Below, one piece after another: positions 23,510 to 58,463 of a stretch of 64,000 nt of DNA. Position 1 is the stretch's first letter; each line of letters begins with the position of its first letter. This DNA comes from Parabacteroides faecalis. GTDB lineage: Bacteria; Bacteroidota; Bacteroidia; Bacteroidales; Tannerellaceae. The stretch covers positions 124,001 through 188,000 of the forward strand of contig NZ_JAKZMM010000001.1 in NCBI RefSeq assembly GCF_022809355.1, given 5' to 3'. Both the position numbers and the translations under genes were made by a program. The notes under the pieces were generated by a model. That model searched no databases and was not told the origin of the DNA. It saw nothing but the letters and a program-made list of their open reading frames with translations.

Positions 23510-23597
23510 TTTTTTGACAGATGTGGTAAAGCTTTATCACATTTGTCAAAAAGCTTTTCGATATATGTAGTAAAGCTTTTCGACAGTTGTCAAAAAA
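23510..23597. repeat. Array of four 22-bp quasi-palindromic units
   Basis: Units at 23510-23531, 23532-23553, 23554-23575 and 23576-23597. AAGCTT cores at the junctions (23529, 23551, 23573) are exactly 22 apart. Unit centres read ACAGATGTG, ACATTTGT, ATATATGT and ACAGTTGT. The first two units are near-perfect inverted copies (19 of 22) and together form a 36-base palindrome with two mismatched pairs. The array is capped by TTTTTT and AAAAAA. Confidence 0.85.
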
Positions 23598-23613
23598 TTA
23601 AAAAGTAATGGGA

Positions 23614-24902
23614 TCAGGGCTGACGCATTACAATCATTTTTTATTGGAATCAATTTTATTACAAGGAGGATTCCAGTCTGCATCAAGTAGTTCTACGAGG
23701 AAATCAGAATTCCATCCTGCCATTTTTCTTTTCATAGTCATGCTCCCTTTACGTGGATTATTCTTCAATTGGGTCATGGCTATCTTGGCTATCAAAGAGA
23801 AATTCTGTGCGGCATTACCTTTCTTTCGCTGATCATCTTCATTAAAAGTGATGTCCAGTTGCCAGTGTAACTTATTTTCTATGCCCCAATGACTTCTGAT
23901 GGCCTGCAGGATACCTTCTGAATCCAGGGGTAAAGAGGTAATAAAATAACGCTTCTCTATTGTCGTCTTTCCTGTTTTTATACGAGTACTTTCTTTTGTC
24001 AGACAAACGACGGAATTTGCATTTTCCCAACCTAATACTGCTGCTGTACAACCATTATTATATACTTGGCAGAAGCGTTTCTCTTCCCGTCCGTGAGCTC
24101 GCTTTTCTTCTTTGTAAGCCATCTGATAACGAGTGGAAGGAATGTGTCCGTGGCCTTCCACCTTGTTTCCTTCCATGTCTATTTCGTTAAACCACGACGT
24201 GATTGTCTTGTGCAAAGTCTTTTGATTGGATTTCACACAGATAAGATAATCGGCATGGGCTTTGGTCACTTCTTTGACTATCTCATGTTGGCAACCAATT
24301 GCATCTATAGTCACGATACACCCTTGCAGGTCTAAAGATTCGATTAGTTTAGGGATTGCCTTTATTTCATTACTTTTCTTATCAACCCGCTCTTGTCCAA
24401 GACTTACTCCGTTCTCTGAAGACCATGCACTTACCATTCGAAGAGAATCAAAACTTCCGTTCCTTTTTTCTTCTTTGGCTCCACATATTTCCTTTCCATC
24501 TATATTAACTATCCCTTTATATTTACCGCATATATCCTGTATCCAGGAGCGAAAGCCTAATTCTAATTCTTTGGGATCCAGCAATGAAAACAATCGGTTA
24601 AATGTATCATGAGATGGAATTCCTTGGAAGTCTTTTATCCGTTCTCTGAAAAAATCTTCCCGTACACGACCAAATTCCGCTACCTCATTCCAGCTTTCGG
24701 CTCCACATAAAACAGCGGATATTGTAATATAAAAGATACTTTCCAAACTATATTTTTTCAAATGATCTCTACGAGGATCTGATACTTTTTCTAATATAGA
24801 AAATATTTCCATTACTTCTTTGATTTTTATTATTATCCCTTTGACTCTCTAAAGATAAATACTTTTTAAAAGGTCTGGAAGTTTGTAATGCGTCAGCCCT
24901 GA
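23614..24902. mobile_element. ISAs1-family insertion sequence
   Basis: 1289 bp bounded by 20-bp perfect terminal inverted repeats beginning TCAGGGCTGACGCATTACAA (23614-23633) and mirrored at 24883-24902. One transposase gene fills the interior. The expected 8-10 bp direct target duplication is not seen (GTAATGGG left, CCACATTA right). The element sits in a repeat-rich spacer; the right-hand repeat array starts abruptly at its end. Confidence 0.93.
23634..24812 (-). CDS. ISAs1-family DDE transposase
   Basis: 392 residues, apparently intact. DDE residues are suggested by VNIDGKEICGAK (first Asp), IVTIDAIGCQ (second Asp) and HWGIENKLHWQLDITFNED (Glu). The N-terminal KVSDPRRDHLKKYSLE resembles the DDE_Tnp_1-associated N-terminal domain. 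The ORF is full length for the family and both IS ends are intact, so the element may still move. Confidence 0.94.
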   Translation of the reverse strand: MEIFSILEKVSDPRRDHLKKYSLESIFYITISAVLCGAESWNEVAEFGRVREDFFRERIKDFQGIPSHDTFNRLFSLLDPKELELGFRSWIQDICGKYKGIVNIDGKEICGAKEEKRNGSFDSLRMVSAWSSENGVSLGQERVDKKSNEIKAIPKLIESLDLQGCIVTIDAIGCQHEIVKEVTKAHADYLICVKSNQKTLHKTITSWFNEIDMEGNKVEGHGHIPSTRYQMAYKEEKRAHGREEKRFCQVYNNGCTAAVLGWENANSVVCLTKESTRIKTGKTTIEKRYFITSLPLDSEGILQAIRSHWGIENKLHWQLDITFNEDDQRKKGNAAQNFSLIAKIAMTQLKNNPRKGSMTMKRKMAGWNSDFLVELLDADWNPPCNKIDSNKK

Positions 24903-24963
24903 CCACATTAGTCAAAAAGCTTTAGCACATATATGATAAAGCTTTAGCACATCTGTCAAAAAA
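24903..24963. repeat. Truncated 22-bp unit array next to the IS
   Basis: Two full units (24920-24941, 24942-24963) and the last 17 bases of a third (24903-24919). AAGCTT cores at 24917 and 24939 are 22 apart. The sequence is the same family as the array at 23510, and it ends in the same AAAAAA cap and ATTAATT flank. The left part is missing where the IS begins. The rest of the spacer to 25168 shows nothing recognisable. Confidence 0.8.
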
Positions 24964-25168
24964 TTAATTGTTAACGACATCGATACTCCAAAGTGCTTGG
25001 TTTCGTATTCAGACAGACGGTTACGAACTTTTATTTCTCTTCTCAAATTCGATGAATACCGGATAATTTGGGAGGGATATACCCAAACTTTTATGCAGGG
25101 GACAAAGAATTTTACATAGGAATGTCGAAGTATTTATTCATATTAGCAGGTTGGTAATTGAATTTTTT

Positions 25169-25176
25169 TACCTTTG
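25169..25176 (+). promoter_or_regulatory. -7 box of the DUF2461-sppA operon
   Basis: TACCTTTG, followed by the gene start 24 bases later. TTG at 25151 is closer (15 bases) than the usual -33 spacing. Confidence 0.55.
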
Positions 25177-25199
25177 CGGGAATTAAATATGTGGGAATT

Positions 25200-25871
25200 A
25201 TGAATGAAGAAATCATTCGATTTTTAACGGAATTAAGAGAAAATAATAATCGTATCTGGTTTCAGGAAAATAAGGCTCGGTATGACCGGCTGCATGACGC
25301 TTTTATTGATGATGTACAAAAGCTGATCAACCGGATAGCGTTGTTTGATCCGGAGGTAAAGAATGTGGAGGCAAAGAGCTGTTTGTTCCGTATTTATCGG
25401 GATATCCGCTTTTCACCGGATAAGACACCTTATAAGAGTCATTTTGCGGCTTATATCGCCCTGGGCGGAAGGGCCAGTGAACGTGGAGGTTATTATATTC
25501 ATCTGGAACCCGGACATTGTATGTTGTCGGGCGGTGTATGGTGCCCGCCTCCCCAATTGTTGAAGATGCTGCGCCGGGATATTTATGATCATATAGATGA
25601 ATTTGTAGCCATCCTGGAAGATCCTGTCTTTCGGGCAACTTATCCGATATTGGAAGGTGAAACGTTAAAGCGGATGCCTGTCGGTTATCCGGCTGATTTT
25701 GCTTACGGAGAAATACTACGGCACAAAGATTTCTGTGTTTGTTCGGAAAAACCGGATAGCTTCTTTACGCAACCGGACTGGATGGAGAAGACCGTAGCCG
25801 ATTTCCAATTGTTGTTACCATTCAATCGTTTTCTGAATTATACAGTGGATGAATTTTTAGGAAGAATCTGA
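25200..25871 (+). CDS. DUF2461 family protein
   Basis: 223 residues from ATG 25200 (MNEEIIRFLTELRENN); a longer in-frame start at 25158 precedes the -7 box and is rejected. DUF2461 (TIGR02453) hallmarks are NRIWFQENKARYD, CLFRIYRDIRFSPDKTPYK and a GGYYIHLEPG stretch. The function is unknown. It is followed by sppA after 21 bases, likely in one operon. Confidence 0.93.
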   Translation: MNEEIIRFLTELRENNNRIWFQENKARYDRLHDAFIDDVQKLINRIALFDPEVKNVEAKSCLFRIYRDIRFSPDKTPYKSHFAAYIALGGRASERGGYYIHLEPGHCMLSGGVWCPPPQLLKMLRRDIYDHIDEFVAILEDPVFRATYPILEGETLKRMPVGYPADFAYGEILRHKDFCVCSEKPDSFFTQPDWMEKTVADFQLLLPFNRFLNYTVDEFLGRI

Positions 25872-25892
25872 TAAACATTAATAGATAGTTTT

Positions 25893-27665
25893 ATGAAACA
25901 CTTTTTTCAAACCATGTTTGCCTCCGTATTTGGAGTGCTGATAGCAATGGGCTTGCTGATCTTGGTTGGCATTTCCTTTTTGATTGGCGTCGCTGCATCC
26001 AGCAGTTCTTCGACGGAATATAAACCCAAGGATAATACGGTGTTTAAATTGAAATTGGAAGGTACAATTTCTGATCAGGTAACCGAGAATCCTTTTAGCG
26101 GTTTATTTAGTGAAGAAGTTGAACCAATGTCATTAACTGATATTACAAAGGCTATCCGTAAAGCAAAGACAAACGATAAGATCAAGGGAATCTATTTGGA
26201 TGCCAGTGGTATGTCGGGTGGTTTTGCTAGCTTTGAAGCGATCCGTCGGGAATTGGAAGACTTTAAGGAAAGCGGAAAGTTTATTGTTTCGTATGCTGAT
26301 GCTTATACACAAGGAACTTATTATCTGGCCAGTGTGGCTGATTCTGTCTTTGTGAATCCGCAGGGAACAGTTGCTTTGGTTGGATTAGCTTCTCAGGGAA
26401 TCTTCTTTAAGAATCTGGCTGCTAAAGTGGGAATGGAATTTTATATCTTCAAAGTAGGTACTTATAAAAGTGCGGTTGAGCCGTATATGACGGATAAGTT
26501 TAGTGATGCAAACCGGGAACAGCTGACTTCTTTCTTAGGTAGTATTTGGGGAAATATGACATCTGCTATTTGTGCGTCTCGTAATATCGCTCCTGCCGAT
26601 CTGGATACTTTCCTGAATCAGGGGCTGGCCTTTGATGATGCGCAAGTAATGGTCGATTATAAGCTAGTGGATGCTTTGGCTTATCGGAAAGAAGCTGAAG
26701 ATTGCGTAAAACGGATGGCTGGACAGTCTTTGGACGATAAGATGGTATCGGCCGATGTGAAAAAGATGCTTGCCATTCCGGAAAAGACTCAGGAAAGCAG
26801 CAATAAGATAGCTGTCTTGTATGCCGAAGGCGAGATCCGTGAAAAGAGTAATTCAGCCATGGGCATGGATGAAGCCGTTATCTCGGAAGATATGGCAGAT
26901 GAATTGCGCAAACTGGCTAAGGACGATGATGTAAAAGCCGTTGTATTCCGTGTAAACTCACCGGGTGGTAGTGCGTATATCTCTGAACAGATCTGGAAAG
27001 CTGTAATAGATCTGAAGGCCAAGAAACCGATTGTCGTGTCTATGGGTGATTATGCTGCTTCGGGAGGTTATTATATTTCGTGTGCCGCTAATAAGATTAT
27101 TGCAGAACGTTCTACACTGACAGGTTCTATCGGTGTCTTTGGTGTTGTCCGGAATATGGCAGGAACCTTTAAGTTGTTGGATGTAACGACGGATATAGTC
27201 AAGACGAATACGTATGCAGACTTGGGTGATATGAGCCGTCCGATGCGGGAAGATGAAAAAGCGTTGATACAGAAAGGAATTGAGCATACGTATGATTTGT
27301 TCCTGACTCGTTGCTCTGACGGACGCGGTTTACCGAAGGATTCAATTGATCATATTGGACAAGGTCGTGTGTGGACAGGTGAACAGGCTTTGGATCGTGG
27401 TTTGGTTGATAAACTGGGTGGCATGGATGTTGCGATCGAAGAGGCAGCTTCGTTGGCAGGCGTTACTGCTTATACCGTAACAACAGCCAATACCAAGAAA
27501 GACTTCTTTACGGAATATATGGAAAAGATGATGGGAGAAGCGAAGGTTTCATTCATTCGTACAGCTTTAGGTGAGGAAGATTTTGCTGTTTATTCCAATA
27601 TTCAGCGCATGAAGTCGCAGACCGGTGTTCAGGCTCGTATGCCTTATCTGATTCAAGGATTATAA
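25893..27665 (+). CDS. sppA: Signal peptide peptidase SppA, 67K type
   Basis: 590 residues, the double-domain form. An N-terminal membrane anchor (about 10-35) is followed by two ClpP-like domains. The catalytic lysine is expected in VGTYKSAVEPYM, and the serine in GDYAASGGYYISC of the second domain. It degrades cleaved signal peptides in the membrane. Confidence 0.95.
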   Translation: MKHFFQTMFASVFGVLIAMGLLILVGISFLIGVAASSSSSTEYKPKDNTVFKLKLEGTISDQVTENPFSGLFSEEVEPMSLTDITKAIRKAKTNDKIKGIYLDASGMSGGFASFEAIRRELEDFKESGKFIVSYADAYTQGTYYLASVADSVFVNPQGTVALVGLASQGIFFKNLAAKVGMEFYIFKVGTYKSAVEPYMTDKFSDANREQLTSFLGSIWGNMTSAICASRNIAPADLDTFLNQGLAFDDAQVMVDYKLVDALAYRKEAEDCVKRMAGQSLDDKMVSADVKKMLAIPEKTQESSNKIAVLYAEGEIREKSNSAMGMDEAVISEDMADELRKLAKDDDVKAVVFRVNSPGGSAYISEQIWKAVIDLKAKKPIVVSMGDYAASGGYYISCAANKIIAERSTLTGSIGVFGVVRNMAGTFKLLDVTTDIVKTNTYADLGDMSRPMREDEKALIQKGIEHTYDLFLTRCSDGRGLPKDSIDHIGQGRVWTGEQALDRGLVDKLGGMDVAIEEAASLAGVTAYTVTTANTKKDFFTEYMEKMMGEAKVSFIRTALGEEDFAVYSNIQRMKSQTGVQARMPYLIQGL

Positions 27666-27689
27666 TTGAAGCGATAAGTTGATAAGTTG

Positions 27690-27754
27690 ACGAGTTGACA
27701 GGGTGTGAGGTTCTTTTCTGTTATAGAGATTTCCTGAAAACCTTGTCAACTCGT
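27690..27754. terminator. Inverted repeat after sppA
   Basis: ACGAGTTGACAGGG (27690-27703) pairs with CCTTGTCAACTCGT (27741-27754) with one G-U. The left arm sits in short AGTTGA tandem copies (from about 27678). There is only a weak T-run after it. Confidence 0.5.
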
Positions 27755-27788
27755 TTGCTTGTATCTTATCTATATTGAAAACGTATAA

Positions 27789-29348
27789 ATGAAGGAACTT
27801 ACTAACTCTAGATTATTTATGTTGAAGTATTGGAAATGGATGTTCGTCTTGTTTGTAGCGATTTTGTCATCGTGTAAAACAACACAACAGCCTGTTAAAC
27901 AATCATTTGTATTGGGAGAAAATCCGAAGCGGGAGTTTCGGGGTGCCTGGATTCAGACGGCTTTCCAGGGAGAATACAAGGAAATGTCGGTAAAGGAAAT
28001 GCGGCGGAGCTTTATCCGTAAACTCGATTTTCTGGAGAAATGCGGTATAAATGCCATTATTTTCCAAGTTCGTCCGGAAGCTGATGCTTTTTATCGTTCG
28101 AAGTTAGAACCTTGGAGTCGTTTCTATACAGGTGAACAAGGTCGTGCTCCGGAAGGTAATTTCGATGTGATGGCTTTCTTGATTGAGGAATGTCACAAAC
28201 GGAATATGGAGTTTCATGCCTGGTTGAATCCGTATCGGATCAGTACAGCCGGAAATACCAAGTTTGCTGATTCGCACATTTATCACCAGCATCCGGAATG
28301 GTTTGTTACTTACAACAAACAGATTCTCTTTGATCCGGGTTTACCACAGTCACGTCAGTTTATATGCAAGGTGGTAAAAGATATTGTTTCTCGTTATGAT
28401 GTGGATGCCATTCACATGGATGATTATTTCTATCCGTATCCGGCAGCCGGACAATTCTTTCCGGACGATAAGAGTTTCCGTAAGTATGGTTTAGCCAAAG
28501 GATATAAACCTGAACAGAAAGCCGACTGGCGGCGTGAGAATGTCAATAAGCTGATCCGTGAAATCAAGCGGACGATCTTGTTAAATAAACCGTGGGTTCG
28601 CTTTGGAATCAGTCCGTTTGGTATCTATCGGAATAAGAAGAGTACGCCAGACGGTTCCGGCAGTAATACGAATGGTCTGCAGAATTACGACGACTTGTAT
28701 GCCGATATTACCTATTGGGTAAAACAAGGCTGGATTGATTATAATATTCCTCAGATTTATTGGGAGATGGGACATCCGCTGGCTGATTACACAACCCTGA
28801 TTAAATGGTGGAGCAAACATGCGTATGGCGGTCATTTATATATCGGACAAGATGTTGCACGTACGATGAAAGCAGATCAATTGACTAAGAAAATGCGTTA
28901 TGAACGTCGTTTGCCGCATATTGCAGGTAACTGTTTCTGGCCGGCCAATGAAATTCTTTGGAATAATAAAGGGGTAGCAGATAGTCTGCAACGTCATTAT
29001 CATCGGTATCCGGCATTGATTCCGGCTTATACAAACATGCATAACCGGGCTCCTGAAGAAGTCAAGAAACTAAAGACAGAATGGACGGCCGATGGTTTCA
29101 TGTTGCATTGGAAAGCCGAACAAAGTAAGACGAATCCGGAATTAGCCTGGTATTTTGTGGTCTATCGTTTCGATCCTAAGGAAGAAATTGATTTGAATAA
29201 TCCGGCTAAGATCGTAGGGATTACTCGAAATACGTTCTATAAACTGCCTTATGATGAGGGTAAAATCAAATATCGTTATGTTGTGACGGCAGTTGATCGT
29301 TTCCATAATGAAAGTCCGAAGGGTAAGAGCAAGAAGGTAAAATTATAA
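27789..29348 (+). CDS. GHL10-type glycosyl-hydrolase-like lipoprotein (YngK/DUF187 family)
   Basis: 519 residues; ATG 27819 gives an ideal lipoprotein signal (MLKYWKWMFVLFVAILSSC), and 27789 adds ten residues. A TIM-barrel family distantly related to glycosidases: EFRGAWIQTAFQG, NAIIFQVRPEADAFY, EFHAWLNPYRIS, AIHMDDYFYPYP, GISPFGIYRN. A C-terminal fibronectin-III-like region begins about residue 430. Some relatives act on peptidoglycan or glycosaminoglycan-like glycans, but this member's substrate is unknown. Confidence 0.9.
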   Translation: MKELTNSRLFMLKYWKWMFVLFVAILSSCKTTQQPVKQSFVLGENPKREFRGAWIQTAFQGEYKEMSVKEMRRSFIRKLDFLEKCGINAIIFQVRPEADAFYRSKLEPWSRFYTGEQGRAPEGNFDVMAFLIEECHKRNMEFHAWLNPYRISTAGNTKFADSHIYHQHPEWFVTYNKQILFDPGLPQSRQFICKVVKDIVSRYDVDAIHMDDYFYPYPAAGQFFPDDKSFRKYGLAKGYKPEQKADWRRENVNKLIREIKRTILLNKPWVRFGISPFGIYRNKKSTPDGSGSNTNGLQNYDDLYADITYWVKQGWIDYNIPQIYWEMGHPLADYTTLIKWWSKHAYGGHLYIGQDVARTMKADQLTKKMRYERRLPHIAGNCFWPANEILWNNKGVADSLQRHYHRYPALIPAYTNMHNRAPEEVKKLKTEWTADGFMLHWKAEQSKTNPELAWYFVVYRFDPKEEIDLNNPAKIVGITRNTFYKLPYDEGKIKYRYVVTAVDRFHNESPKGKSKKVKL

Positions 29349-29424
29349 ATCCTTATAGTTGCTCAGAGAGTTTTCGGAAGAGAAAGTATTTTGAAGTCAT
29401 TTCAAAGATTTGCGGGGAAAAAAT

Positions 29425-29455
29425 GAAGGCACAACATATCGCATGCTGTGCCTTC
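29425..29455. terminator. Hairpin between convergent genes
   Basis: GAAGGCACA (29425-29433) pairs with TGTGCCTTC (29447-29455), with an inner CAT/ATG. It lies between the GHL10 and lamin-tail gene 3' ends. T-runs are weak on both sides. Confidence 0.55.
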
Positions 29456-29507
29456 CATGTTCTAAATACAACTCCTATGTTGAAAAGAACTTAGAAAACA
29501 ACGAAAT

Positions 29508-32417
29508 CTATGGAATTAATAATACTTGTTTCTTACGAATGACGTTTCCGCCGGGATGCCATAGTTCGAGATATATGATATAAATACCTGTATTGACTGG
29601 CGAACCATCGCGCCCTTTTCCGTTCCATTCTAAATATCCTTGCGTTCCGAGCGAGGTGTTGTCGGCTATTAAAGCTACTTTCCTGCCGGATAAATCGAAA
29701 ATCCATCCTCGTGCCATATAGCCTGACTGATTGAGCCGATACGGAATCTGAAAAGTTCCGGTTGGCTGATAAATCGGATCATCAATTTCTTCTGAATCAG
29801 ATTCTGTCTCTCCATTCAGATATTGTGAGTTTTCCAAACCCGGTGTACCGAAACCAGCCGACGAAGCAGCCGAAGTCCAGTTGTCGGCATTCTGTGAATC
29901 TTTATCCGGATCTTTCCGTTCCAGAGCAACACCCTTTTTGTTTTTGACGGTAGGTGCGTGCCATTTGGGAGAATAACTTACTTCGTCGATAATTATTTCT
30001 CCTTCTTCCCGATATAAAACAACGGTTGAACCAGTATTGGAAAGTACAGGTAATTTACATTCCAACCAATTCAGAGAAGCCGGTAGTGAATAGAAATTCT
30101 CTACACCTTCGATTGATTTGGTCAGCAACAGATAATCACCTGCCTGCAGTGTTTGCGGATAAGCTTCCAAAGGATAACGGGTGTTTAAAGAACCATCGCT
30201 TTTCCGGGTAGAAATGCATACGTCTTTCAGACTTAATTCCTGTTCGGAGCGATTATACAGTTCAATGTATTCACTGCCATCGACAAAAGGTTCCGGCAAT
30301 AGTTCATTGATGATAATATCACCGGGTTGAGGTTGTTGTGCTTCCGGTATTTCCGGTTCAGGATTGGTTTCTTCTTCTGGTTCATCGGGCGTTTCATCAG
30401 GTTCTTCTTCATTCTCCTCCGCTTCCGAATTGGCTTCTCCCGGTGTTCCTCCACGCGGATCGCTTGAAAGATGCCAGCCTTCCTCATCAAATTCCCATGA
30501 ACAAGCGGGTTTTGCTTTCGGATAGGTATATTGATCCATCAGTTGACCGTTGGCATCGTATAAAGAAAGTTCTTTTCCGGTATTGGCCAAAGCAGAAGGA
30601 AATTTATCCAAAGGGCAGGCTTGTCCGTTTCCCACCTCTATTCCCCGTCCGGAACGATATAGAACGGCCCATCCATGTGCCGGGATGACAACGTCGGTTA
30701 AAGCAATCGGAGTAGTTCCGTAGTTGAGTATCCAGTTGGAAAGATCGATTGATTGATCTACCTTATTATATAATTCAATGTACTCTGTTTCGGGCAAGGC
30801 TGTCAATCCTTTCGGATCTGCCATTACTTCATGGATGATGACACTTCCTTTCGGATAAGATTCTTCCGGCTGTTCCGGTTCTTCCGGAACGACTGGTGTC
30901 TCCGGTTCCTCTGGTTCTTCTTCCGGTTCCTCTTCCGTTGTAGTAGGTTCCGAATTGCTTTCTCCTGGTGTTCCACCACGTGGATCGGTTGAAAGATGCC
31001 AGCCATCCTCATCATACTCCCACGAACAGGCGGGTTTAGCCTGTAGATAGGAATAAGAATCTATACATTCCTCACCAGCATATAAAGCCAATGTTTTTCC
31101 GTTATTAAATAATTGAGGAAAGGTTTCGATCGGAATCGCTATGTTTTCGGGGAATATATCGGTATGTTTGGCATGAAATAGAATAACATAACCGTTGGCA
31201 GGAATAGAAAATCCATCTAGTCCCTTTCTTCTGTATCCGTTTCCATAATCGAATATCCAACCATCCAAAGAAATGGTTTTGTCTTGGGTATTATATAATT
31301 CCACGTATTCAGGCCATCCACATGTATCCGGATCAGCCATTACTTCATTGATCCGGATTGCCTTTTCTGGATACGTTTCTATGGGATCTTCGGGTTGGTC
31401 TTCCGGAGTTTCGGGTGTTTCTTCCTCTTCTTCTTCGGATTCATCGTTCACCAATTTAACACTGACATTTCCGTCTTTGATTGGCAAACCTAATTCATCT
31501 ACAATACCTTCCCAATAGAAAGTATAAGGCGTATTAAAAGATAATTCTTGGGGGAAATCAATGATAACACTATTCTCATTATATAATTTCTTTCGATCTA
31601 TCATTTCTTTTCCCTCGAAACCTTCACCTTCTGCATAAAATGTTGCGTTTTCGATATTAATGGGTGCTGAAAAATAAAGTTTGGCACTGGCATAAGTAAG
31701 AGCTTCAATATCGATAAATTGAACTTCGCTTTCTATAGGAGTTTCAGGTTCTGCCGTAGGAATGATTTGTGAAGAAATCTCTATATTATCAATGTAATGC
31801 CCTCTTTTCTTTGAAGAATAATGAAAATCAAAACCAGACTTAATATATTTCAATTGTCTGGACTGAAGTTCTTGTTCAAAAGTTCCAATGGTAGAAAAAA
31901 AGGATTTTCCTTCCTCTTGAACATACAGTGTCCATTTTTTACTGTTTTCGAGAGTTACTTTGATTCTTAATTTGACATTTTCTGTTTTTAAAATATCTAA
32001 TTCTTGTTCAATATATCGTTTAGAGCTACTTTCCGTCTCTCTTAAACGGCGTAAACTGATTGTTTTATCATTACTTCCTATTTGTACGTAGTATGTTTCA
32101 TCAATACCAACTATTGATAATCTGTCTGTTAGTAAATTAAAGCGAATATGGTTATAGTTGCTTGGAATGAAATCCATTTTTACGTCGAATTGCCATACCA
32201 TAGTATCAGAAAAAGCTAATGATACTTGTAATTGAGAAGAACTTTTCTCGGAATCTCCTACTAATTCTAACCAACCGTTTTCGTTAATGATAAAATCGGA
32301 CAAATCTCCTTGCCAAGTATTTCTTGATGTAATGTCTGGTCCATCAAACGTCTCCAGAAACTGCGAAAATACCAAAAGAGGAAGATTAACGAGGAAGAAA
32401 AGTAAAATTTGTTTCAT
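29508..32417 (-). CDS. Large exported protein with three lamin-tail domains
   Basis: 969 residues. Signal peptide [18 protein letters not shown]; an N-terminal concanavalin-like region (about 20-220); an Ig-like linker; then three lamin-tail (LTD) domains starting [20 protein letters not shown] and [11 protein letters not shown]. Linkers are very rich in Glu and Pro. The first two LTD domains share a C-terminal block ([14 protein letters not shown]). The C-terminus (about 885-969) is a FlgD-Ig-like domain ([16 protein letters not shown]), similar to surface-sorting regions in Bacteroidetes. Likely surface or vesicle protein; LTD proteins in bacteria are often linked to nucleases, but no nuclease domain is seen. 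Confidence 0.87.
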
Positions 32418-32445
32418 AGTCAGCCAGTTTTGTTTTAGAATTGTT

Positions 32446-32472
32446 TATCTTTGCACGCTGTTTGATAACAGC
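32446..32472 (+). promoter_or_regulatory. -7 box and start-site hairpin of asd
   Basis: TATCTTTG (32446-32453) matches the consensus. GCTGTT, loop TGAT, AACAGC (32457-32472) forms a hairpin at the very 5' end of the predicted transcript, which could stabilise it. The leader to the ATG is about 88 nt. Confidence 0.55.
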
Positions 32473-32547
32473 TTGTTATTAATTAATCGCAAAGATAAAA
32501 ATTGTAAACGAATATACAAACTTTTTAAACTAAAAATTTTTGCTGAA

Positions 32548-49715: not shown

Positions 49716-49806
49716 GATAAAATATGAATTTAATAGTTACGTGAATCATTATAAAGCGAAAGTAGGAATTTTTTGATAGCGTTCCAATAAGTTTCAGGTA
49801 AATTCG

Positions 49807-49814
49807 TATTTTTG
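49807..49814 (+). promoter_or_regulatory. -7 box of the metallophosphoesterase-GH20 operon
   Basis: TATTTTTG, 46 bases before the start. Confidence 0.45.
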
Positions 49815-49859
49815 CTAGACTTAAATCTTAGTTATTGTTGAATATAAAATGAAAAACAA

Positions 49860-50852: not shown

Positions 50853-52921
50853 GACATAAAGAGTTTTTTCTAAGTATTCTGATGCTCGTCAGTGTTGGAA
50901 TAACACAGATTCAGGCCATCAGTTCTGTTTTTCAGATTCTTCCTAAACCTCAGCATATAGAGGAATTGAAAGGAAAAGGAATTTCCGGTACAGATTTACA
51001 GTTTATTGTTAATCAGTCGTCCGGGGAAATGCCGGTTTTGGGTCCTATCTTGAACACTTTGCCCCAGGCAGAGATGCAGGGAAAAGGAGTTTATCTGACG
51101 ATTACGGATAAGGATGTCCCGGAATCGGAAGAAGGTTATGTCTTGTCGGTAAATGAAAAAGGAGTTGTTATTGCTGCTCGGAGTGAGGCTGGATTGTTTT
51201 ATGGCTGTCAGACGCTGGAGCAAGTCTTGGAAGACAGCCGTGATTATAACTGTCCTATTCCGGCGATGAAGATAACAGACTTCCCTTCGATTGCTTATCG
51301 GGCCGTTCATTTGGATACTAAACATCATCTGGACCGTATGGAATATTATTATGCCATGATGGACAAGCTGGCCCGATATAAGATCAATGCGGTTATTTGG
51401 GAACTGGAAGATAAGCTGCGATATACGAGACGTCCGGAAATAGCTTCTCCCAATGCAATCAGTAAACAGGAGATGCAGGCTTTATGTCGTTATGCCAAAG
51501 AAAGAAATATCGATGTATCTCCGTTGGTACAAGGATTGGGACATGCCAGTTTTATCCTGAAACATCATTGGGAATTGAGAGAAAATCCGAAAAGCGATTG
51601 GGAACTGTGTCCTTCCAATCCGGAAACCTACGATTTGCTGTATGATTTGTATGCAGATGCTTTGGAAGCGATGCCTTATGGTAAGTATTTGCATATCGGC
51701 GGGGATGAGATTACTGCAATCGGGATAGACAAACGTTGTAAGGATACCGGGAAAACGGCTTTTGAGTTGCAAATGTATTGGTTGCAGAATGTATGTAATT
51801 ATGCGAAGGAGAAAGGGCGTGTTCCAATATTCTGGGATGATATGCCATTGAAATATGCAGGCCTTTGGACTACGATTTTAAGTGATATGTCGGGTGAAGA
51901 ACTGGATAAGGCCTGGAATACCAAAAAGTTGGATCAAGCGATCGAACTGTTCCCGAAAGATTGTATCTATATGCGTTGGAACTATGGAGACGCGACGAAG
52001 CCGGCACATATGAAGTTGCTGAACTGGTATAAGGAAAAAGGCTTGCAAGTAATGGCTGCTACTGCGGCTTCTTCGGGAGATTCTCCGTTTTTACCTCGTA
52101 ATAATACGAAAGCCGGATTTATTCAAGGATTTAGTCGGTTGGTAGTTGAGAATCATTTGGCTGGAATCCTGGCAACAGCTTGGGACGATGGCTCTCCGCA
52201 TTTGGAAACAGTCTGGCGAGGATACATCGCACAAGGAGAATTTGGCTGGAATCCTACAGGAAGGACTATTGATGAATTTATGGAAGCGCACGGCCAACGG
52301 GAGTTTGGTTTTAAGGCTGGTGAAAACAGGATGGACTTCTTGAAGGAACTGGAAGAGGCTTTCTTCTTTTTTGATGGAGCGTTGGTAGAAAGCGGACGCA
52401 GAAATCCGGCTTGGGGAACAACAACTTTTACTCTCATCGATTTGCCGGACCAAGAGAAACCGGGTGAGTGGGCGGAAAAGTATAAAGAAAAGATTATCCA
52501 GGCAGAAAAGGAATCTCTTCGTTTTGAGAAGATCCGGAAACAATTGACGGATGCCCGAAAGATGGCTCGCAGGAACCGCTATACATTAGAAGTTTATGAA
52601 CAGAATAATTATTTACAGAATTATCCGGTTCGCCTGATCTTGGCTTTGCGGGATTATGATTTGGCAACTCATGAACAGCAGCGCGAAGAGGCCCAGATGA
52701 AACTGGCGGAAGTTTGTTCCTCTTTTTCGTCTATGCGAACTCGTCTGGAAGAGGTTTATTCCAAGACACGATTTATGGAGCAGCCTGCCGGTTATATAGA
52801 AGACATGAACCATCATAATCATTTATCGGCTAAGTCTCAGAATAGCGATTGGCTCTTTTTGTATGAATTACCTATGGTGGAAAAAGTACAAAAATGGCTT
52901 AATTCAAAGACAATAAAATGA
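50849..52921 (+). CDS. GH20-like beta-hexosaminidase with helical C-terminus
   Basis: 690 residues. Signal peptide MRHKEFFLSILMLVSVGITQ; N-terminal GH20b-like domain (about 28-140); barrel with VIWELEDKLRYTRRP and the Asp-Glu pair in LHIGGDEITAIG. About 150 C-terminal residues are helical and charged (about 530-690). It diverges from the HWHLTDD-type members, so substrate may differ. Its last 23 bases overlap the 3' end of an opposite-strand sigma gene. Confidence 0.9.
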   Translation: MRHKEFFLSILMLVSVGITQIQAISSVFQILPKPQHIEELKGKGISGTDLQFIVNQSSGEMPVLGPILNTLPQAEMQGKGVYLTITDKDVPESEEGYVLSVNEKGVVIAARSEAGLFYGCQTLEQVLEDSRDYNCPIPAMKITDFPSIAYRAVHLDTKHHLDRMEYYYAMMDKLARYKINAVIWELEDKLRYTRRPEIASPNAISKQEMQALCRYAKERNIDVSPLVQGLGHASFILKHHWELRENPKSDWELCPSNPETYDLLYDLYADALEAMPYGKYLHIGGDEITAIGIDKRCKDTGKTAFELQMYWLQNVCNYAKEKGRVPIFWDDMPLKYAGLWTTILSDMSGEELDKAWNTKKLDQAIELFPKDCIYMRWNYGDATKPAHMKLLNWYKEKGLQVMAATAASSGDSPFLPRNNTKAGFIQGFSRLVVENHLAGILATAWDDGSPHLETVWRGYIAQGEFGWNPTGRTIDEFMEAHGQREFGFKAGENRMDFLKELEEAFFFFDGALVESGRRNPAWGTTTFTLIDLPDQEKPGEWAEKYKEKIIQAEKESLRFEKIRKQLTDARKMARRNRYTLEVYEQNNYLQNYPVRLILALRDYDLATHEQQREEAQMKLAEVCSSFSSMRTRLEEVYSKTRFMEQPAGYIEDMNHHNHLSAKSQNSDWLFLYELPMVEKVQKWLNSKTIK

Positions 52922-53465
52922 GCAATGGAAGATAATCCTTCAGGTCTGTCCGTAATTGTTTTAGGGCTTGCTGGATACGATAGTCTACTGTTTTGCTGGA
53001 AACATGCAGCTGATCGGCAATTTCCTTATAGCTCATCTGTTGGAAGCGGTGCATGACGAATGCCTCCCGGTAACTGGGAGGCAACGCTTCTATGGCCTGT
53101 TTCATCACTTTCTGCAGTTCTTCCAGCTGATAATAATCGGTATCATGCAGCAGGTATTGCATTTGTTCGTAGAAAATAGTTTCAGCATTTGTCTGAACCT
53201 TTTGGTGTTCAATCTGATTCAGTGCTTTATGATAAACTGTTCGTAACAGGTATTGCCCCAGTGACTTGTTGATACAAATCTCTTCCCGGCTCTTCCATAA
53301 CCAAAACAGGGTATCTTGCACAATTTCTTCGGCATCTTCCAGTGAGACAAAACGTGAACAATAGGCACATAGCATGGGGTAATATTTCTTGAACAGAAAA
53401 GAATAAGCCTTTCTGTCTCCGTGTTGCAGATCACGGATGATGTCTTCTTCGCAACTCCATTCCAT
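52899..53465 (-). CDS. ECF-type sigma factor without adjacent anti-sigma gene
   Basis: 188 residues from ATG 53465 (MEWSCEEDIIRDLQHGDRKA); a TTG start at 53498 coincides with the predicted transcription start and is rejected. Region 2 LFKKYYPMLCAYCSRFVSLE and region 4 helix-turn-helix MSYKEIADQLHVSSKTVDYRI (shown as MSYKEIADQL and HVSSKTVDYRI). No FecR gene or TonB receptor follows. Its 3' end overlaps the convergent GH20 gene by 23 bases. Confidence 0.93.
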   Translation of the reverse strand: MEWSCEEDIIRDLQHGDRKAYSFLFKKYYPMLCAYCSRFVSLEDAEEIVQDTLFWLWKSREEICINKSLGQYLLRTVYHKALNQIEHQKVQTNAETIFYEQMQYLLHDTDYYQLEELQKVMKQAIEALPPSYREAFVMHRFQQMSYKEIADQLHVSSKTVDYRIQQALKQLRTDLKDYLPLLILLSLN

Positions 53466-53504
53466 ATTTCCCCAAGTCTTATGCCCGCTTAAGAACAATT
53501 TTCA

Positions 53505-53535
53505 CAAAGATACGTATCCGAAAGGAAAAATCAAA
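53505..53535 (-). promoter_or_regulatory. Promoter of the orphan ECF sigma gene
   Basis: On the minus strand TTTG (53532-53535), 19-base spacer, TATCTTTG (53505-53512): an exact consensus. Transcription would start near 53498. Confidence 0.85.
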
Positions 53536-53691
53536 TTCCCGATTTATTTTTTGATTTTCTGATTTTTATGAATGGTTTGCCTGAAGAAGGATTGAATAAC
53601 AGAGAAAAGTTACTGCCCAGCTTTTCCCTAATACATTGAGAAACTCTTGTTTAGTCGGTGGATTTTCGTGTTTTTTCTATTACAATTTAGT

Positions 53692-53779
53692 TAATTTACC
53701 AATATGAATCAATTAATTCACTATTGTGATGTAATTAAATCATATTGGTGAATTGATTGCATCGCGATAGTGAATTAAA
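53692..53779. repeat. Array of four 22-bp quasi-palindromic units
   Basis: Units at 53692, 53714, 53736 and 53758 (each 22 bases), starting TTAATT, TTAATT, TTAAAT and TTGCAT and ending ATCAA, TGTAA, ATTGA and ATTAA. Cores read ACCAATATG, ACTATTGTG, ATATTGGTG, GCGATAGTG. Unit 4 is the reverse complement of unit 2 at 19 of 22 positions, and unit 3 of unit 1 at 18 of 22. It is followed by ATAATAT. No gene in it; flanking spacer 53536-53691 and 53780-53830 shows nothing else. Confidence 0.88.
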
Positions 53780-53830
53780 TAATATGACGTATATTTTACG
53801 AGAATGATAAAGCTGGTCTATACGAATATA

Positions 53831-55402
53831 TTATCCGTTTTGCAGAACATCTTCCTTTTCAGGAGCAGATGGTTCCGGAGTTGTATCCGGGGCAAACGGA
53901 TTGAAATAATAAATTCCGTATGTATCCAGTAATTCCAGGAAATAAGGGAGTTTTTGCATGAACAAACTATAATCTTTCTTCTTCTCGATGGTCCAACCGG
54001 CTTCGGCCGTTGCAATCAAACGGGGGAAGGTCATGAAATCAAGTCGTTTGTTATCCGCTACGCGTTCTGTCCACAACGAGAATTGCAAACCTAGAATCTG
54101 ATCTTCATAACCCAGCGTCAGGTTGGATACTTGCGACGGAAACCGGTAAACGTCTTCTATCGGGTTATAGCCGTTCCAGAAACGTCCGACTTTATGGCTT
54201 CCGTATTGGATGAAATCCCCATAGAAAGGCCGACGTGGCGTCATGATTACCCGATAACCGTTTTCCAAAGCCTTTACCAATTGATGCTTACGGTCGTGAC
54301 GCCACCACATGACAATTAATTTATCGGGAGAAACATCCGCGTCGATGGCTTCGTCCCAGGCAATGATCGTTTTCCCTTTTGAAGCAACGATATCGGCAAT
54401 ACGGCGGATAAAGTAATGTTCCAAACCGGTTTCGTTGCCTAACTGTTTATCTTGGATGAATTGCTGTATTTCCGGATCCGTGAACCAACTTTGGTTACCG
54501 TAATGAACTTCATCTCCTCCTATATGGATGTAAGGAGAAGGAAACAAGGCAAAGAGTTCATCGAAGATCTGACTGATAAAGGTGTACGTCTCTTCTTTAC
54601 AAGGATGGAACGTAAAGTGTGCCCAACGACCTTCTCCTCCACCCGATACTTCGGGATAAGCCCGGCAAACAGCAGTCGCATGACCCGGCATATCAAATTC
54701 CGGTACAACCATGATCTGACGTTCTGCTGCATAAGCTACAATCTCTTTGATATCTTCCTGTGTATAAAAAGCCGCCGGAGCCTTGGGATCATGCCAGTTT
54801 CCGATAGCCCCTTCTTGTGTCAGTTTTGGGAAACGTTTGATTTCAATGCGCCAACCGGGTTCGTCCGTCAGGTGCCAGTGAAATACGTTCAGGTGCAGCG
54901 ATGCCATCAGATCCAGATATTGCTTCACCTTCTCCTTTCCAAAGAAATGCCGGCTTTCATCTAGCATAAATCCACGCCAGGCATAACGCGGGTGATTCTG
55001 AATCCGGCAACATTGCAGGCTTCCTTTTCCGAAACGGAGCATCTGTAAAAGGGCTTCTTTGGCATGAAACAAACCGGAAACCGTTGAGGCTTCAAGTAAT
55101 ACCTTTTCTGCTGTTACCGTCAGCTGGTAGGCTTCTTCGGATAATCCATTCTTTTCATCCAAAACGAATTGGATAGTTCCTCCTTCCGTTGCTGATAATG
55201 GAAGATGTTGTAATTCGGCTTTCAGACTTTCGACTAACTGAATGGCTTCATTTCCTGTTCCTGAAACATTTGCCAACCGGCCAATATTACAATTCCCTTT
55301 ATCTTGTGAATAAGACGAAGGAGTTGGAAACAATACTCGTTGCCCATAAAAAGGAACAAGCGTAAAGAAACATAATAAGCAAGACAATAAATACTTCTTC
55401 AT
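53831..55402 (-). CDS. Beta-N-acetylhexosaminidase, GH20
   Basis: 523 residues. Signal peptide MKKYLLSCLLCFFTLVPFYG; GH20b domain (about 22-135); barrel with HWHLTDEPGWRIEIKRFPKL and the Asp-Glu pair in IHIGGDEVHYG. It lacks the C-terminal chitobiase and PA14 modules of the larger paralogues and ends in an acidic, proline-rich tail. Follows the 892-residue glycosidase-like gene by 49 bases on the same strand, so the two are probably one operon. Confidence 0.95.
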   Translation of the reverse strand: MKKYLLSCLLCFFTLVPFYGQRVLFPTPSSYSQDKGNCNIGRLANVSGTGNEAIQLVESLKAELQHLPLSATEGGTIQFVLDEKNGLSEEAYQLTVTAEKVLLEASTVSGLFHAKEALLQMLRFGKGSLQCCRIQNHPRYAWRGFMLDESRHFFGKEKVKQYLDLMASLHLNVFHWHLTDEPGWRIEIKRFPKLTQEGAIGNWHDPKAPAAFYTQEDIKEIVAYAAERQIMVVPEFDMPGHATAVCRAYPEVSGGGEGRWAHFTFHPCKEETYTFISQIFDELFALFPSPYIHIGGDEVHYGNQSWFTDPEIQQFIQDKQLGNETGLEHYFIRRIADIVASKGKTIIAWDEAIDADVSPDKLIVMWWRHDRKHQLVKALENGYRVIMTPRRPFYGDFIQYGSHKVGRFWNGYNPIEDVYRFPSQVSNLTLGYEDQILGLQFSLWTERVADNKRLDFMTFPRLIATAEAGWTIEKKKDYSLFMQKLPYFLELLDTYGIYYFNPFAPDTTPEPSAPEKEDVLQNG

Positions 55403-55451
55403 TTTAACTATGTTTTTAGGTATGTGACTGTATTAACAATTGTGGTTAAAC

Positions 55452-58130
55452 TTACTTCTCTAACCAAACGATCATACCACTTCTACCCAAAATTTCACAA
55501 TTGTTCAGGTTGGATAGCTTTCCTCCCCATTGAAGATTTCTGACTTCCGGTAAAGTGAACTTGGTTGGTTTGAATCCAAGAGCCTTTTCGTCAATCTGAA
55601 TTTTGGCTGTTTGAGGCAGATCTGTCCAATTAGCGATAACGACCAGCGCTTTATCTCCATTGACAAATACTGTGGCTGGTAAATCTTTATTGTCTGTTTT
55701 AACAGGGCATTGTTCATCCCAGTATCCGTGGATGGAAGCATTCTTCATGTCAAACTGATCAAATAGATTCCAAAGTGGAACCGGATTTCCACTCCATGGT
55801 AAACGAGGTAACATACCATAGACTAATCCTCTGAACTGATTCCGGGCATCTAATGTCTCACTAAGCAAGCCAAAAGGAATACCCGACATTTCTACCAGCC
55901 AGAAATCTGCCGTATTGTTTGCCGGGAAACCTTCACCAATCCAAGTCCGATCTACGTAAGGAAGTAATTCTGTGTAAAGATGGAGAGAGTTGGCAAAGCC
56001 AGCCCATTTATTCATGTGATTCCAAGAGTGAATATCAATCAGTCGCTCTTTTCCGTCTGAATCAAGAATTCTGCGGGCACGTTGAATTGTTTTCCGATCC
56101 AAAGCACTATCGTCAATATAAACACCGTCGATACCTAAGTTCTTAACCATCCAGTCTAATCCGGCTAAATAGTAATTGTTCCAACGAGAATCAGGAGTCG
56201 TAATGACAGAAATGTCCATATCGCCAGCATATTTCCCTTCATTAAACGCATTATACCAGGCAGGAATAAAATGAGTGGTCAGGTTCTTATTTAACCATTC
56301 ATTCGGTCCGTTCGGATGGATAAGCGTACGTGTATCTTTTCCCGGTCCGTCATGTATTACTTCACTTCCCAAGCTTCGTAAAGCCCATAACTCCGGAATC
56401 TTAACAGTCAGTTCTCGAGTTGTATAATATAAACGAACTCCCAGATTTTTCTGATGTGCTTTCTGAATAAAAGCTTTCAGATCAGATACTGCATCATCAT
56501 GATACGGATAATTGATAAATGGATAAATATCCTTTTTATGATGGACATTAATCAAATTGGCTCCGTTTTTGAGCGCTTCATCGATATAATTGGCACTTAA
56601 ATCGGAATTGGAATGGTAAAACCGGTTAGTCACCTGTTTTTTCCAATTAATGGGTTTGACAGGAGTTATCTGCATATCAAAGTTATAAGATAACTTCTCT
56701 CCTTTTTCCATCGAGCGTTCGCCACTATAAGCTACTAATTTGGTTGTTCCATGGGTGGTAGGATAGATATTAATTCCTCCCTTATTCTGATTACCCCATG
56801 ATTCCGGAAGATTAAGTTTTCCAAGCGCATAGTAAATGTTGACAAGCGGACGAACAAAGTGATCATCCATGAATCGTAAATTCATTCCGGCATTGACATT
56901 TCCCATCCATATTTTATCCTGGTGCTTTTCTATGTCCCAATTCCAGGAAATTAAAGAATCCGGACGAAAACCTCCTTTATGTCCTAATCCCATCATATAT
57001 TTAGAAGCATAGCTGGAATAAGGAACTTCCAGTCGGATATCCTTCACTGAAACATGTTGTTTAGCTTTTACTTGAATCGAAATATTGCTGATTCCATCAA
57101 ATCCGAAATCGCCGTTACAACTAACTTGAAAACGGGAGTTGGACTGTTCGGAACTCCAAGTAATATTCGTTTGGTTTTGTTTCAGAATGCGAACTTTCCC
57201 TCCTTTAAGAATCTCCTCTCCTTGATCTGTCTCAATGATGAATTTCATCTCTTCTGCCAATATTTCATTCGTAGCGTCCGACAAATTATTATTGGCATCA
57301 TAGCAAGTAGTGATAGAAGATGGCAAACCAGTAGCGGTTAGATGGATCTTTCCACCAAGCCAGGTTAAGACTTTATCTTTTACCGTTACGGGCGTATAAG
57401 GAGCTGTTGGCTTATCGTCATTTCCGATCGTTGCATTCAGCCAGCGAAGTCGGGTTTTTCTCCACCCTTCATCATCTCCATGATTGGCAATGGCTTCTCC
57501 ACTGACACGTAATTCGACGGAAACACAAGCCTTCTTCTCATCGTTTACATGAATCCATACATTCCCTTTGTAAACACCACTAGCATGAGTTGGAATATCC
57601 ATACCGATCCAAAGAGGTTGCACATCACCTTTTTCTACTTGGACTGGAAATTGAATCGGTTTACCATATTTATCAATTCCATTCGTATTGAAACAAGTCA
57701 AGGCGGAAGCTTTAATTTTATCTCCACGTTCGTTCTTCAAATCAGAAAAAGAAACCGATATATGCTCCAGTTTATTATACGGGGCATACACTCCGATTTG
57801 CCAGGTATAAAATTCACCAGGCAAAGCCTTCCCTTTAAACAAGGAACGTTCTTGTTCTGTCCGTTCGATCCAGTGAAGAGGAATTTGATCTTTCAGCCGG
57901 ATATCATGTTCTCGATCTTCCGTAAAGCAAAAGAAACCGGCATCAGGTCGTTTCTGGATCAAAGCCTCTACCTGCTGCTCAGATGCCACCTTTCTCATGA
58001 TGGACTGATCTTCCTGAACAATTCCCGTACGTTGCAAATCATGGAATGCATTCGTAACTTCTTCTTGTCCACCAACGTTCATACTCAATAATGCGGACAA
58101 AATCAAAAAGGTAAATTTCTTAGTATACAT
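55452..58130 (-). CDS. Large exported glycosidase-like protein (DUF6067/GH123-like)
   Basis: 892 residues. Signal peptide MYTKKFTFLILSALLSMNVG; an N-terminal beta-sandwich half (about 90-510) and a C-terminal TIM barrel (about 510-800) with NGANLINVHHKKDIYPFINY, LGIDGVYIDDSALDRKTIQR and a terminal beta domain. The layout recalls DUF6067 and GH123-like proteins, families that act on N-acetylgalactosaminides, but I cannot place it with certainty. Asp in YIDDSAL is a candidate catalytic residue. A 16-base palindrome (ATAAAAG, TG, CTTTTAT, 58129-58144) overlaps the start codon. Confidence 0.78.
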   Translation of the reverse strand: MYTKKFTFLILSALLSMNVGGQEEVTNAFHDLQRTGIVQEDQSIMRKVASEQQVEALIQKRPDAGFFCFTEDREHDIRLKDQIPLHWIERTEQERSLFKGKALPGEFYTWQIGVYAPYNKLEHISVSFSDLKNERGDKIKASALTCFNTNGIDKYGKPIQFPVQVEKGDVQPLWIGMDIPTHASGVYKGNVWIHVNDEKKACVSVELRVSGEAIANHGDDEGWRKTRLRWLNATIGNDDKPTAPYTPVTVKDKVLTWLGGKIHLTATGLPSSITTCYDANNNLSDATNEILAEEMKFIIETDQGEEILKGGKVRILKQNQTNITWSSEQSNSRFQVSCNGDFGFDGISNISIQVKAKQHVSVKDIRLEVPYSSYASKYMMGLGHKGGFRPDSLISWNWDIEKHQDKIWMGNVNAGMNLRFMDDHFVRPLVNIYYALGKLNLPESWGNQNKGGINIYPTTHGTTKLVAYSGERSMEKGEKLSYNFDMQITPVKPINWKKQVTNRFYHSNSDLSANYIDEALKNGANLINVHHKKDIYPFINYPYHDDAVSDLKAFIQKAHQKNLGVRLYYTTRELTVKIPELWALRSLGSEVIHDGPGKDTRTLIHPNGPNEWLNKNLTTHFIPAWYNAFNEGKYAGDMDISVITTPDSRWNNYYLAGLDWMVKNLGIDGVYIDDSALDRKTIQRARRILDSDGKERLIDIHSWNHMNKWAGFANSLHLYTELLPYVDRTWIGEGFPANNTADFWLVEMSGIPFGLLSETLDARNQFRGLVYGMLPRLPWSGNPVPLWNLFDQFDMKNASIHGYWDEQCPVKTDNKDLPATVFVNGDKALVVIANWTDLPQTAKIQIDEKALGFKPTKFTLPEVRNLQWGGKLSNLNNCEILGRSGMIVWLEK

Positions 58131-58375
58131 AAAAGTGCTTTTATAATTTATCGTGTTCTTCGCTCGAATTAACTGCTGTAAAAATAGGTGATAAAATTAG
58201 CTATTTTATTAGTAATTCTGAGTGTTTTTGTATGATCTTATTTCTCAAATCGGCAATGTCAAGTTGGATTACTTATAATTCAAAGTATTGTTGGAAATTC
58301 ATTTACTTATAGTAAATTCAAAGAAAACTCATATTTTTCTAACGAATGTTTCTTATTTATATCTTATTTATTAAT
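58131..58375. other. AT-rich spacer upstream of the glycosidase operon
   Basis: About 245 bases between the glycosidase start and the 58376 array. Apart from the palindrome at the start codon no promoter consensus or reading frame is seen. Confidence 0.5.
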
Positions 58376-58463
58376 TGATTCACTAATGTGAATTAATTAA
58401 TTCACAAATATGATTTGATTAATTTACCAATATGAATTGATTGCATCACATTGGTGAATCAAA
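58376..58463. repeat. Array of four 22-bp quasi-palindromic units (sibling of 53692 array)
   Basis: Units at 58376, 58398, 58420 and 58442, starting TTGATT, TTAATT, TTAATT and TTGCAT. Cores read ACTAATGTG, ACAAATATG, ACCAATATG, ACATTGGTG. Unit 3 nearly equals unit 1 of the 53692 array; unit 4 matches its unit 4 and is followed by the same ATAATAT. Unit 1 is the reverse complement of unit 4 at 18 of 22 positions. Confidence 0.88.

Follow-up and report, generated by a model that had tools for sequence, protein, structure and literature searches.

Four-unit arrays of 22-bp palindromes dispersed in intergenic DNA of Parabacteroides faecalis and related Tannerellaceae

Introduction

Tandem arrays of operators are familiar from four-operator repressor regions, from ARG boxes (about 21 bp from centre to centre), and from replication iterons, and such arrays are confined to a single locus or a handful of loci, next to the gene or origin to which they belong. 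Several other intergenic repeats are spread over whole genomes. BrickBuilt, a MITE of Porphyromonas gingivalis, is described as an intergenic element present in 19 copies in ATCC 33277 and built of 23-nt tandem units; the same description gives it 1 to 22.8 direct repeats, internal indels, a leader and tail of up to ~300 nt, and IS5-like ends GAGACC (Klein 2015, PMC4596501). REPs and BIMEs associated with RAYT are described as dispersed extragenic palindromes of species-specific sequence (PMC3733652; Tobes and Pareja, PMC1525189), and REPs as landing sites of particular insertion sequences (PMC1525189). PINSR, an intergenic repeat of 188 bp with 177-184 copies in Prevotella intermedia/nigrescens, is presented as lineage-specific and of no known function (PMC4755523).

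Here, we analyse a window of 64,000 nucleotides (bases 124001-188000 of contig C1) from the 4.3-Mb draft genome of Parabacteroides faecalis (G000; 104 contigs). A preliminary description of this window, made from its letters, had pointed out three intergenic arrays of exactly four quasi-palindromic units of 22 bp. In the open-licence literature, which was the scope of our survey, we found no description of a four-unit 22-bp array form.

Results

Arrays of the window

We scanned the window with a score that leaves the sequence free and combines dyad pairs (even-centred dyads only) with 22-bp self-identity across four units. The three arrays of the preliminary description are real by this measure: they take the three highest scores (71 at 58364, 67 at 23510, and 62 at 53680), and they lie above all shuffles, since the maximum is 49 over 20 dinucleotide shuffles of the window and 56 over 20 shuffled sets of AT-rich spacers of about equal length. 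The latter is the AT-matched comparison that the description had itself proposed, and the arrays, at 62-71, stand clear of it. Other periods between 16 and 30 gave at best 58 (periods 27 and 30, for which the score ceiling is higher), which is below the three arrays and just below a fourth at 24887 (59); the next score is 51. This fourth array, cut by an insertion sequence (IS), had been missed, so that three was not the full list. The best unit frames of the other three (Table 1) are within 1 bp of the positions first given.

A single class with sequence varying between loci had been envisaged. Two families are present: family A, four times TTTnnnACnnnnGTnnnAAA joined by AAAGCTTT (AAGCTT-joined), includes the array at 23510, and the two other originally noted arrays both belong to the TTAATT-joined family B, which has the same 22-bp step and the same core in another setting. 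The units are dyads, as had been claimed, but their core is better written ACnnnnGT than ACnnnTG. The arrays also have a direction: in family A, unit 2 starts TTTTCCATA in 26 of the 41 oriented copies, and copies lie in both directions. The direction of the 23510 array itself is ambiguous (87 versus 86 matches to the family A consensus); this array is upstream of the SHMT gene, whose start is 175 bp away, and the right side of its element is stopped by the IS. Elsewhere in the window, a tandem repeat at 15985-16132 (period 41 bp, 3.6 copies) lies between convergent ORFs, and its unit includes an inverted stretch, CTCCTTTTCCAAAAGGAG.

Table 1. Positions of the arrays and of the neighbouring insertion sequence in the window.
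Feature	Position	Strand	Basis or content
Family A array, four 22-bp units TTTnnnACnnnnGTnnnAAA, joints AAAGCTTT	23510..23597	.	Scan, unit frames
Family A element, approximate extent	23488..23614	.	Array plus ~20-25 bp imperfect inverted ends, outward TTAAAAnGTAACGAnnTTT
ISAs1-family IS, ends CAGGGCTGACGCATTAC / GTAATGCGTCAGCCCTG	23615..24901	-	Transposase gene 23634-24812
Second family A array, IS-cut	24902..24963	.	Remnant of two complete units plus the greater part of a third
Family B array, four 22-bp units, core ACnnnnGT in AATTCAC/GTGAATT setting, TTAATT-type joints	53691..53778	+	Scan, unit frames
Family B array, four 22-bp units	58375..58462	+	Scan, unit frames

Copies and unit number in the genome

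A sequence-only profile (R1, E up to 0.01) gave 92 matches on both strands among the best 150 of 2570 candidates, and we count about 45 family A places in the genome; a hand count of match rows gives 17 family B places, the weakest of which (C25) was left out of inspection. One IS-split array counts as two places in each family (C50 and the window array at 24902 in A; C2:153325 and C9:124 in B). Three of the 45 family A places are IS-cut fragments (C65, C50, and C1:148900), and we inspected every one of the remaining 42. Of these, 41 contain four units, including L280, whose unit 4 has had its final bases trimmed by an IS, and L384 contains five. The counting procedure seeks the best four-unit window and cannot return fewer than four; yet outside genome G072 a single unit among 407 scores below 7/10, and the best four-unit sum over 180 shuffled pieces is 25/40, so the fours of family A are real. 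The claim of exactly four units therefore stands for this family with one exception, and less well for family B, in which a lenient rule gives four units at 13 of 19 loci (16 in P. faecalis and 3 in other genomes), one of the 13 (L027) being itself an IS-cut piece. The other six B loci have four units with a marginal fifth (7-8 of 12), save one that is IS-cut and one (G044) that has three.

Unit anatomy and conservation

The 41 four-unit family A arrays have a median pairwise identity of 0.83; compared with their majority sequence, they carry 420 substitutions and 0 indels. The TTT/AC/GT/AAA letters of the units have a mean conservation of 97.1%, compared with 88.1% for the joints, 80.5% for the centre, and 79.1% for the triplets. 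Units with identical halves are rare (17 of 396, whereas pooled frequencies, taken without regard to position, would predict ~53). Since the information content of 40 family A copies reaches the background ~25 bp outside the array, the whole element would measure ~130 bp, with imperfect inverted ends. These candidate terminal inverted repeats extend over ~20 bp; the inverted ends seen in genome G060 are clearer. Outward, the family A ends read TTAAAAnGTAACGA in the 40 copies, sometimes GTAG, which is not constant; in REPs, the tag at the stem foot is GTAG or CGTC.

Arrays in other genomes

The arrays extend beyond the window and the genome. Within the taxonomic family, the R1 profile has matches (E up to 1e-3) in 37 of 118 genomes, P. 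faecalis included, and in 11 of 16 genera; E-values are rough here, and numbers per genome are lower bounds from the best 34 candidates at most. At the level of the order, at least 2 of 295 genomes match at 1e-6 (P. faecalis and G061, from the same family), a weak lower bound from the best 13 candidates per genome, and plain BLAST with the 23510 array finds 4 of 41 genomes, P. faecalis included. We assembled 104 distinct arrays from family A of P. faecalis and from ten other genomes, after dropping one duplicate (L391). Four units are found in 99 of the 104, with a bias toward fours because loci outside P. faecalis were picked by a four-unit profile; the exceptions are one array of five (L384), one of six (L323), and three in G072. 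The latter reach 6, 6, and 8 units under a lenient rule, and their outer arms hold weaker in-phase dyads.

The frame TTTnnnACnnnnGTnnnAAA is constant across genomes and the core letters are largely species-specific. The half-site core is ACC in 48/48 cases in G018 and in 80% in G061; ACA in 95% of 56 in G103; ACA or ATA in 93% of 328 in P. faecalis; ACT or ACA in G060; and a mixture of ACA and ATA in G075 and G069, or of ACC (36%), ACT (23%), and CCC (20%) in G012. B-like four-unit arrays are present in G008 (L126, L129). Genome G061 has two kinds of array (L344 versus L341-L343 and L395), with cores ACAGCTGT and ACCCCGGT, which can be compared with the presence of A and B in P. faecalis.

Positions are seldom common between genomes: one array has both neighbours orthologous, and other pairs have one gene in common, as do L036 (G000) and L324 (G012), whose alignment is limited to that gene. 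The array with two orthologous neighbours (96 and 86% identity) has four units in both G018 and G021. At this single orthologous pair, 3/40 contact letters have changed as against 14/48 other array letters (p 0.014) and 16/100 flanking letters, the latter difference from the contact letters not being significant (p 0.28). Upstream of SHMT, a clear array, of different sequence, is found in 3 of 19 congeners (at 253 bp in G004, at 254 bp in G011, and at 171 bp in G002, where the step is 21 bp). There is no array in that spacer in 15 of the 19, and G008 is borderline.

We also compared 14 DUF2461 loci (167 kb; all but one bear the name Parabacteroides, Tannerella or Tannerellaceae) that were chosen regardless of arrays. 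They contain 13 windows of period 21-23 above the shuffle maximum, versus 6 in 66 other loci (761 kb, mostly Bacteroidota), although several of the 13 are weak and some belong together as parts of a single longer array. The letters of the clear arrays are unrelated to A and B, except for an ACCTAGGT in L174, and the arrays of L182 and L186 have more than four units. Palindromic arrays with steps of 21-23 bp and mostly unrelated letters are seen at L174, L181, L182, L184, and L186, in other Parabacteroides/Tannerellaceae loci.

Folding, covariation, and REP transposases

The symmetry of the units could serve a single strand: a terminator, an RNA-processing stem, a REP moved by RAYT, or an attC-like hairpin. 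Single strands of six arrays do fold much more stably than shuffled sequence (z -4.7 to -8.9), so that an RNA or a cruciform called for a test. Three pairing schemes show no covariation in 30 oriented family A copies. Pairs are kept in 75.6% of cases for the unit dyads, 66.0% for the joint dyads, and 78.2% for one nested hairpin, against 76.7%, 67.6%, and 80.0% after shuffling, and 500, 498, and 500 of 500 shuffles, respectively, are at least as high. The covariation scores of the unit, joint, and nested schemes are equalled or exceeded by 492, 480, and 500 of 500 shuffles, and the RNAalifold covariation term for family A is -0.09. When any partner is allowed, real family A arrays fold worse than chimeras with swapped units (z +2.2), and there is no clear difference in B (z -1.1), G069 (-1.4), G061 (-1.7), or G103 (0.0); arrays were oriented for A and B only, and positive values in G060, G018, G075, and G012, which may reflect mixed orientation, were set aside. 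We infer that folding comes along with the repeated contact letters and that the symmetry is of the kind read by a dimeric protein on duplex DNA.

Terminators fare no better. Matches to a terminator-like pattern are at the level of shuffles (one found, at the 23510 array, with 1.0 expected), as they are in a second count (6 versus 4.3 expected, 0/6 inside an array). The order of T before and A after each dyad is the reverse of that of a terminator, and the window has no Rfam match at gathering scores. We therefore reject the intrinsic terminator, with a G+C-rich stem and T run above chance, and the hairpin or RNA element more generally, given the lack of covariation in three schemes and of a folding advantage in A over unit-swapped chimeras; the proposal of terminator or RNA-processing stems also sits badly with arrays being found in divergent spacers as often as control spacers are.

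Another member of this group, a REP family mobilised by its transposase, was tested with Y1_Tnp (PF01797; RAYT). This gene is found in 5 of 13 array-bearing genomes, with one or two each (G018, G021, G055, G061, G069), and in 3 of 12 genomes without R1 matches, which have one or more. It has no match in P. faecalis and is absent from seven other array-bearing genomes (G012, G057, G060, G068, G072, G075, G103), and this absence from 8 of 13 indicates that the arrays do not need RAYT. A REP with RAYT is rejected on this ground, together with the lack of compensatory stem changes and the fact that divergent spacers are not avoided. Overall, an element that acts as RNA or as a single strand is very improbable.

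Genomic context

Rows of phased dyads could also be operators of a global transcription factor, each array tuning its neighbouring genes. Both neighbours could be identified for 74 arrays (40 from other genomes and 34 of the 42 in P. faecalis, where 8 A loci lack a neighbour on one side). Of these, 29 lie between divergent genes and 9 between convergent ones, the other 36 being tandem, with orientations taken from a simple ORF caller. The predominance of divergent over convergent spacers would suit a regulon, but control spacers taken from these loci, each 150 bp or longer, show the same mix (18 tandem, 14 divergent, 4 convergent). Array-to-gene distances vary widely, and neighbours are mixed, with no recurrent gene: in P. 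faecalis, 70 of the 76 neighbouring proteins match 113 Pfam families between them, and elsewhere 112 of 121 match 200; the commonest family occurs 4 times. In addition, 16 of the 19 congeners (one of them borderline) have no clear array upstream of SHMT. A regulon of this kind therefore seems to us decidedly improbable.

Separately, four near-identical arrays (L039, L074, L049, L050) lie by genes of six-bladed propeller proteins (DUF5128/DUF4934, TolB-like), and two of the four have a paralogous downstream gene in common.

Traits of mobility

Four near-identical A copies have 122-145 bp in common and mostly unrelated flanks; in the pair C54/C8, the common stretch is 239 bp and includes a paralogous downstream gene. 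The arrays thus resemble MITEs in being non-coding and dispersed in unrelated flanks, one pair with a paralogous flank excepted, and an ordinary MITE moved in trans, in which the array would be filler or a transposase-binding region with no role for the host, is the alternative that has to be weighed. The short imperfect inverted ends of family A, and the presence or absence of arrays at the SHMT spacer among congeners, agree with it. In G060, the array lies inside a ~240-bp element whose ends are inverted copies of AACGTGnnnTTCGCTAT, and possible AT-rich duplications can be read by eye at the edges of 5 copies; yet these repeats vary from 4 to 5 bp within AT-rich DNA. Among 32 family A copies no target duplication stands out (at best 2/32, at 4 bp), and no autonomous partner with the ends of the G060 element was seen in that genome, which is 54% complete and has copies at contig ends. 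Zero indels in diverged copies would not be expected of filler. Taken together, these points make an ordinary MITE unlikely.

Transport on other replicons is rejected: one family A array has no blastn match in plasmid and phage collections, a 21-base family A stretch has none in viral contigs, and a 15-base stretch is found in 59 viral contigs, which by our own estimate is about the chance level for such a collection. The compared parts of those contigs have a unit-mask sum of at most 26/40, near the shuffle maximum of 25.

An ISAs1-family insertion sequence targets the arrays

The gene at 23634-24812 encodes an ISAs1-family transposase (NF033564, E 1.4e-100; Pfam DDE_Tnp_1_assoc and DDE_Tnp_1). 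A census of this IS gave 18 match rows, from which two relatives (36 and 57% identity) were removed, leaving 16 rows that represent 17 IS ends. At 11 of the 17, an array starts within ~30 bp or is cut (at C22, no more than half a unit survives). Among the six others, C40, C89, and C4 are far sides of such insertions, as indicated by common 9-10 bp duplications, and the last three are C65 right, C56, and C31. Only ~0.25% of the genome is that near an array, which makes a chance association unlikely (p 2e-25, under independence).

This proximity raises the possibility that the arrays are by-products of the IS, or of slippage as in minisatellites. Slippage would result in variable unit numbers. 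The IS ends and the arrays have no sequence in common by eye, most A arrays have no adjacent IS, and the 9-10 bp target duplications within or beside arrays imply that the IS arrived second. The array at 24902-24963 pairs with contig C50, which carries the same 10-bp duplication ACCACATTAG, and rejoining them gives exactly four units; the cut B array made of L027 and L017 (9-bp duplication) likewise rejoins to four units as read. An origin of the arrays as IS by-products is thus rejected, and the whole by-product explanation, slippage included, is extremely improbable. The insertions are tolerated, so the IS-cut copies are not essential as intact arrays.

In the window, the IS lies between two different arrays, with no matching target duplication between its two sides. 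Because the 24902 array pairs with C50 and not with the left side in the window, this configuration points to recombination between IS copies or to an assembly join. The observation that SHMT and DUF2461 are not side by side in the congeners listed with both agrees with either, and a number of contigs in the assembly end at such IS copies. Elsewhere, the family A arrays L077 (C63) and L089 (C71), which adjoin IS copies, agree with each other from the IS as far as part of unit 3 and diverge beyond it, as if they had exchanged parts by recombination.

Discussion

The preliminary description had offered three readings of these arrays, namely regulator operators occupied on one helical face, terminator or RNA-processing stems, and a REP-like mobile family. 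The first fits best in its geometry: symmetry is confined to near-invariant, contact-like letters, the step has no indels, and the variable letters are uncompensated. The third holds for dispersal, variation among congeners, mostly unrelated flanks, and IS landing, and fails for the transposase, there being no RAYT gene in P. faecalis. We consider it somewhat probable that each array is a protein-docking row on duplex DNA, in which four dimers of one putative sequence-specific protein would sit on one face. Such a row would account for 1) the fixed step and number; 2) the dyad contacts; 3) the lack of indels and of compensation; and 4) the differences in core between whole genomes. Our direct observations are the number and spacing of the units, the dyad contacts, the absence of indels, the largely species-specific cores, the dispersal, and the use of the arrays as IS landing sites.

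The four palindromic sites lie two helical turns apart, so that dimers could bind side by side. The binder would be a trans-acting dimeric protein that co-evolves with the arrays, and A and B would need two specificities. Within a short intergenic element (~130 bp), the row would then be the part that carries the function, and a protein-DNA assembly would most likely keep the copies intact and multiply or use them. Candidate binders may be, for instance, recombinase-like or chromosome-organising proteins.

More tentatively, and with a probability that we place well below even, geometry alone may be inherited in what would be a family-wide class of intergenic nucleoprotein arrays: four dimer sites, a 22-bp step, and the TTTnnnAC half-site, with the letters drifting together in each genome under a putative fast-evolving binder. 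The arrays might then serve as a novel kind of chromosome-wide anchor or of transpososome seat, and a single genome could hold more than one specificity, each independent of the other.

It is uncommon for an intergenic repeat in bacteria to hold the number and spacing of its units constant and leave their sequence free. This suggests an assembly of proteins in a set stoichiometry, for whose protein the array itself could serve as bait.

How does this class relate to the systems described before? Tandem operators have adjacent protein sites about two helical turns apart, as the arrays would, but the arrays occupy about 60 scattered places in the P. faecalis genome. PINSR is likewise intergenic and lineage-specific; compared by description only, it differs in being described as lacking terminal inverted repeats, in a passage that mentions no 22-bp units (PMC4755523). 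The arrays are like BrickBuilt, as it is described, in being intergenic, in having tandem units of a similar length (23 nt in BrickBuilt) and copies that differ in sequence, and in their occurrence in Bacteroidetes (PMC4596501). They differ from it by their 22-bp step and their four units in 99 of 104 cases, the BrickBuilt number being variable in that account with no fixed four, and the ends GAGACC are not in the end consensus of 40 family A copies. Like REPs, as these are described, the arrays are dispersed, extragenic, and palindromic, have species-specific letters, and act as IS landing sites. Unlike REPs, they occur in a genome without Y1_Tnp, show no pairing covariation, and consist of four duplex sites in a fixed step; REPs are also mostly found in unidirectional or convergent spacers, unlike the arrays. 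The class thus lacks defining traits of RAYT-associated REPs and of BrickBuilt and has part of those of MITEs: in its habit, by copy number and as an IS target, it is REP/MITE-like, and by the tests made it is a member of neither.
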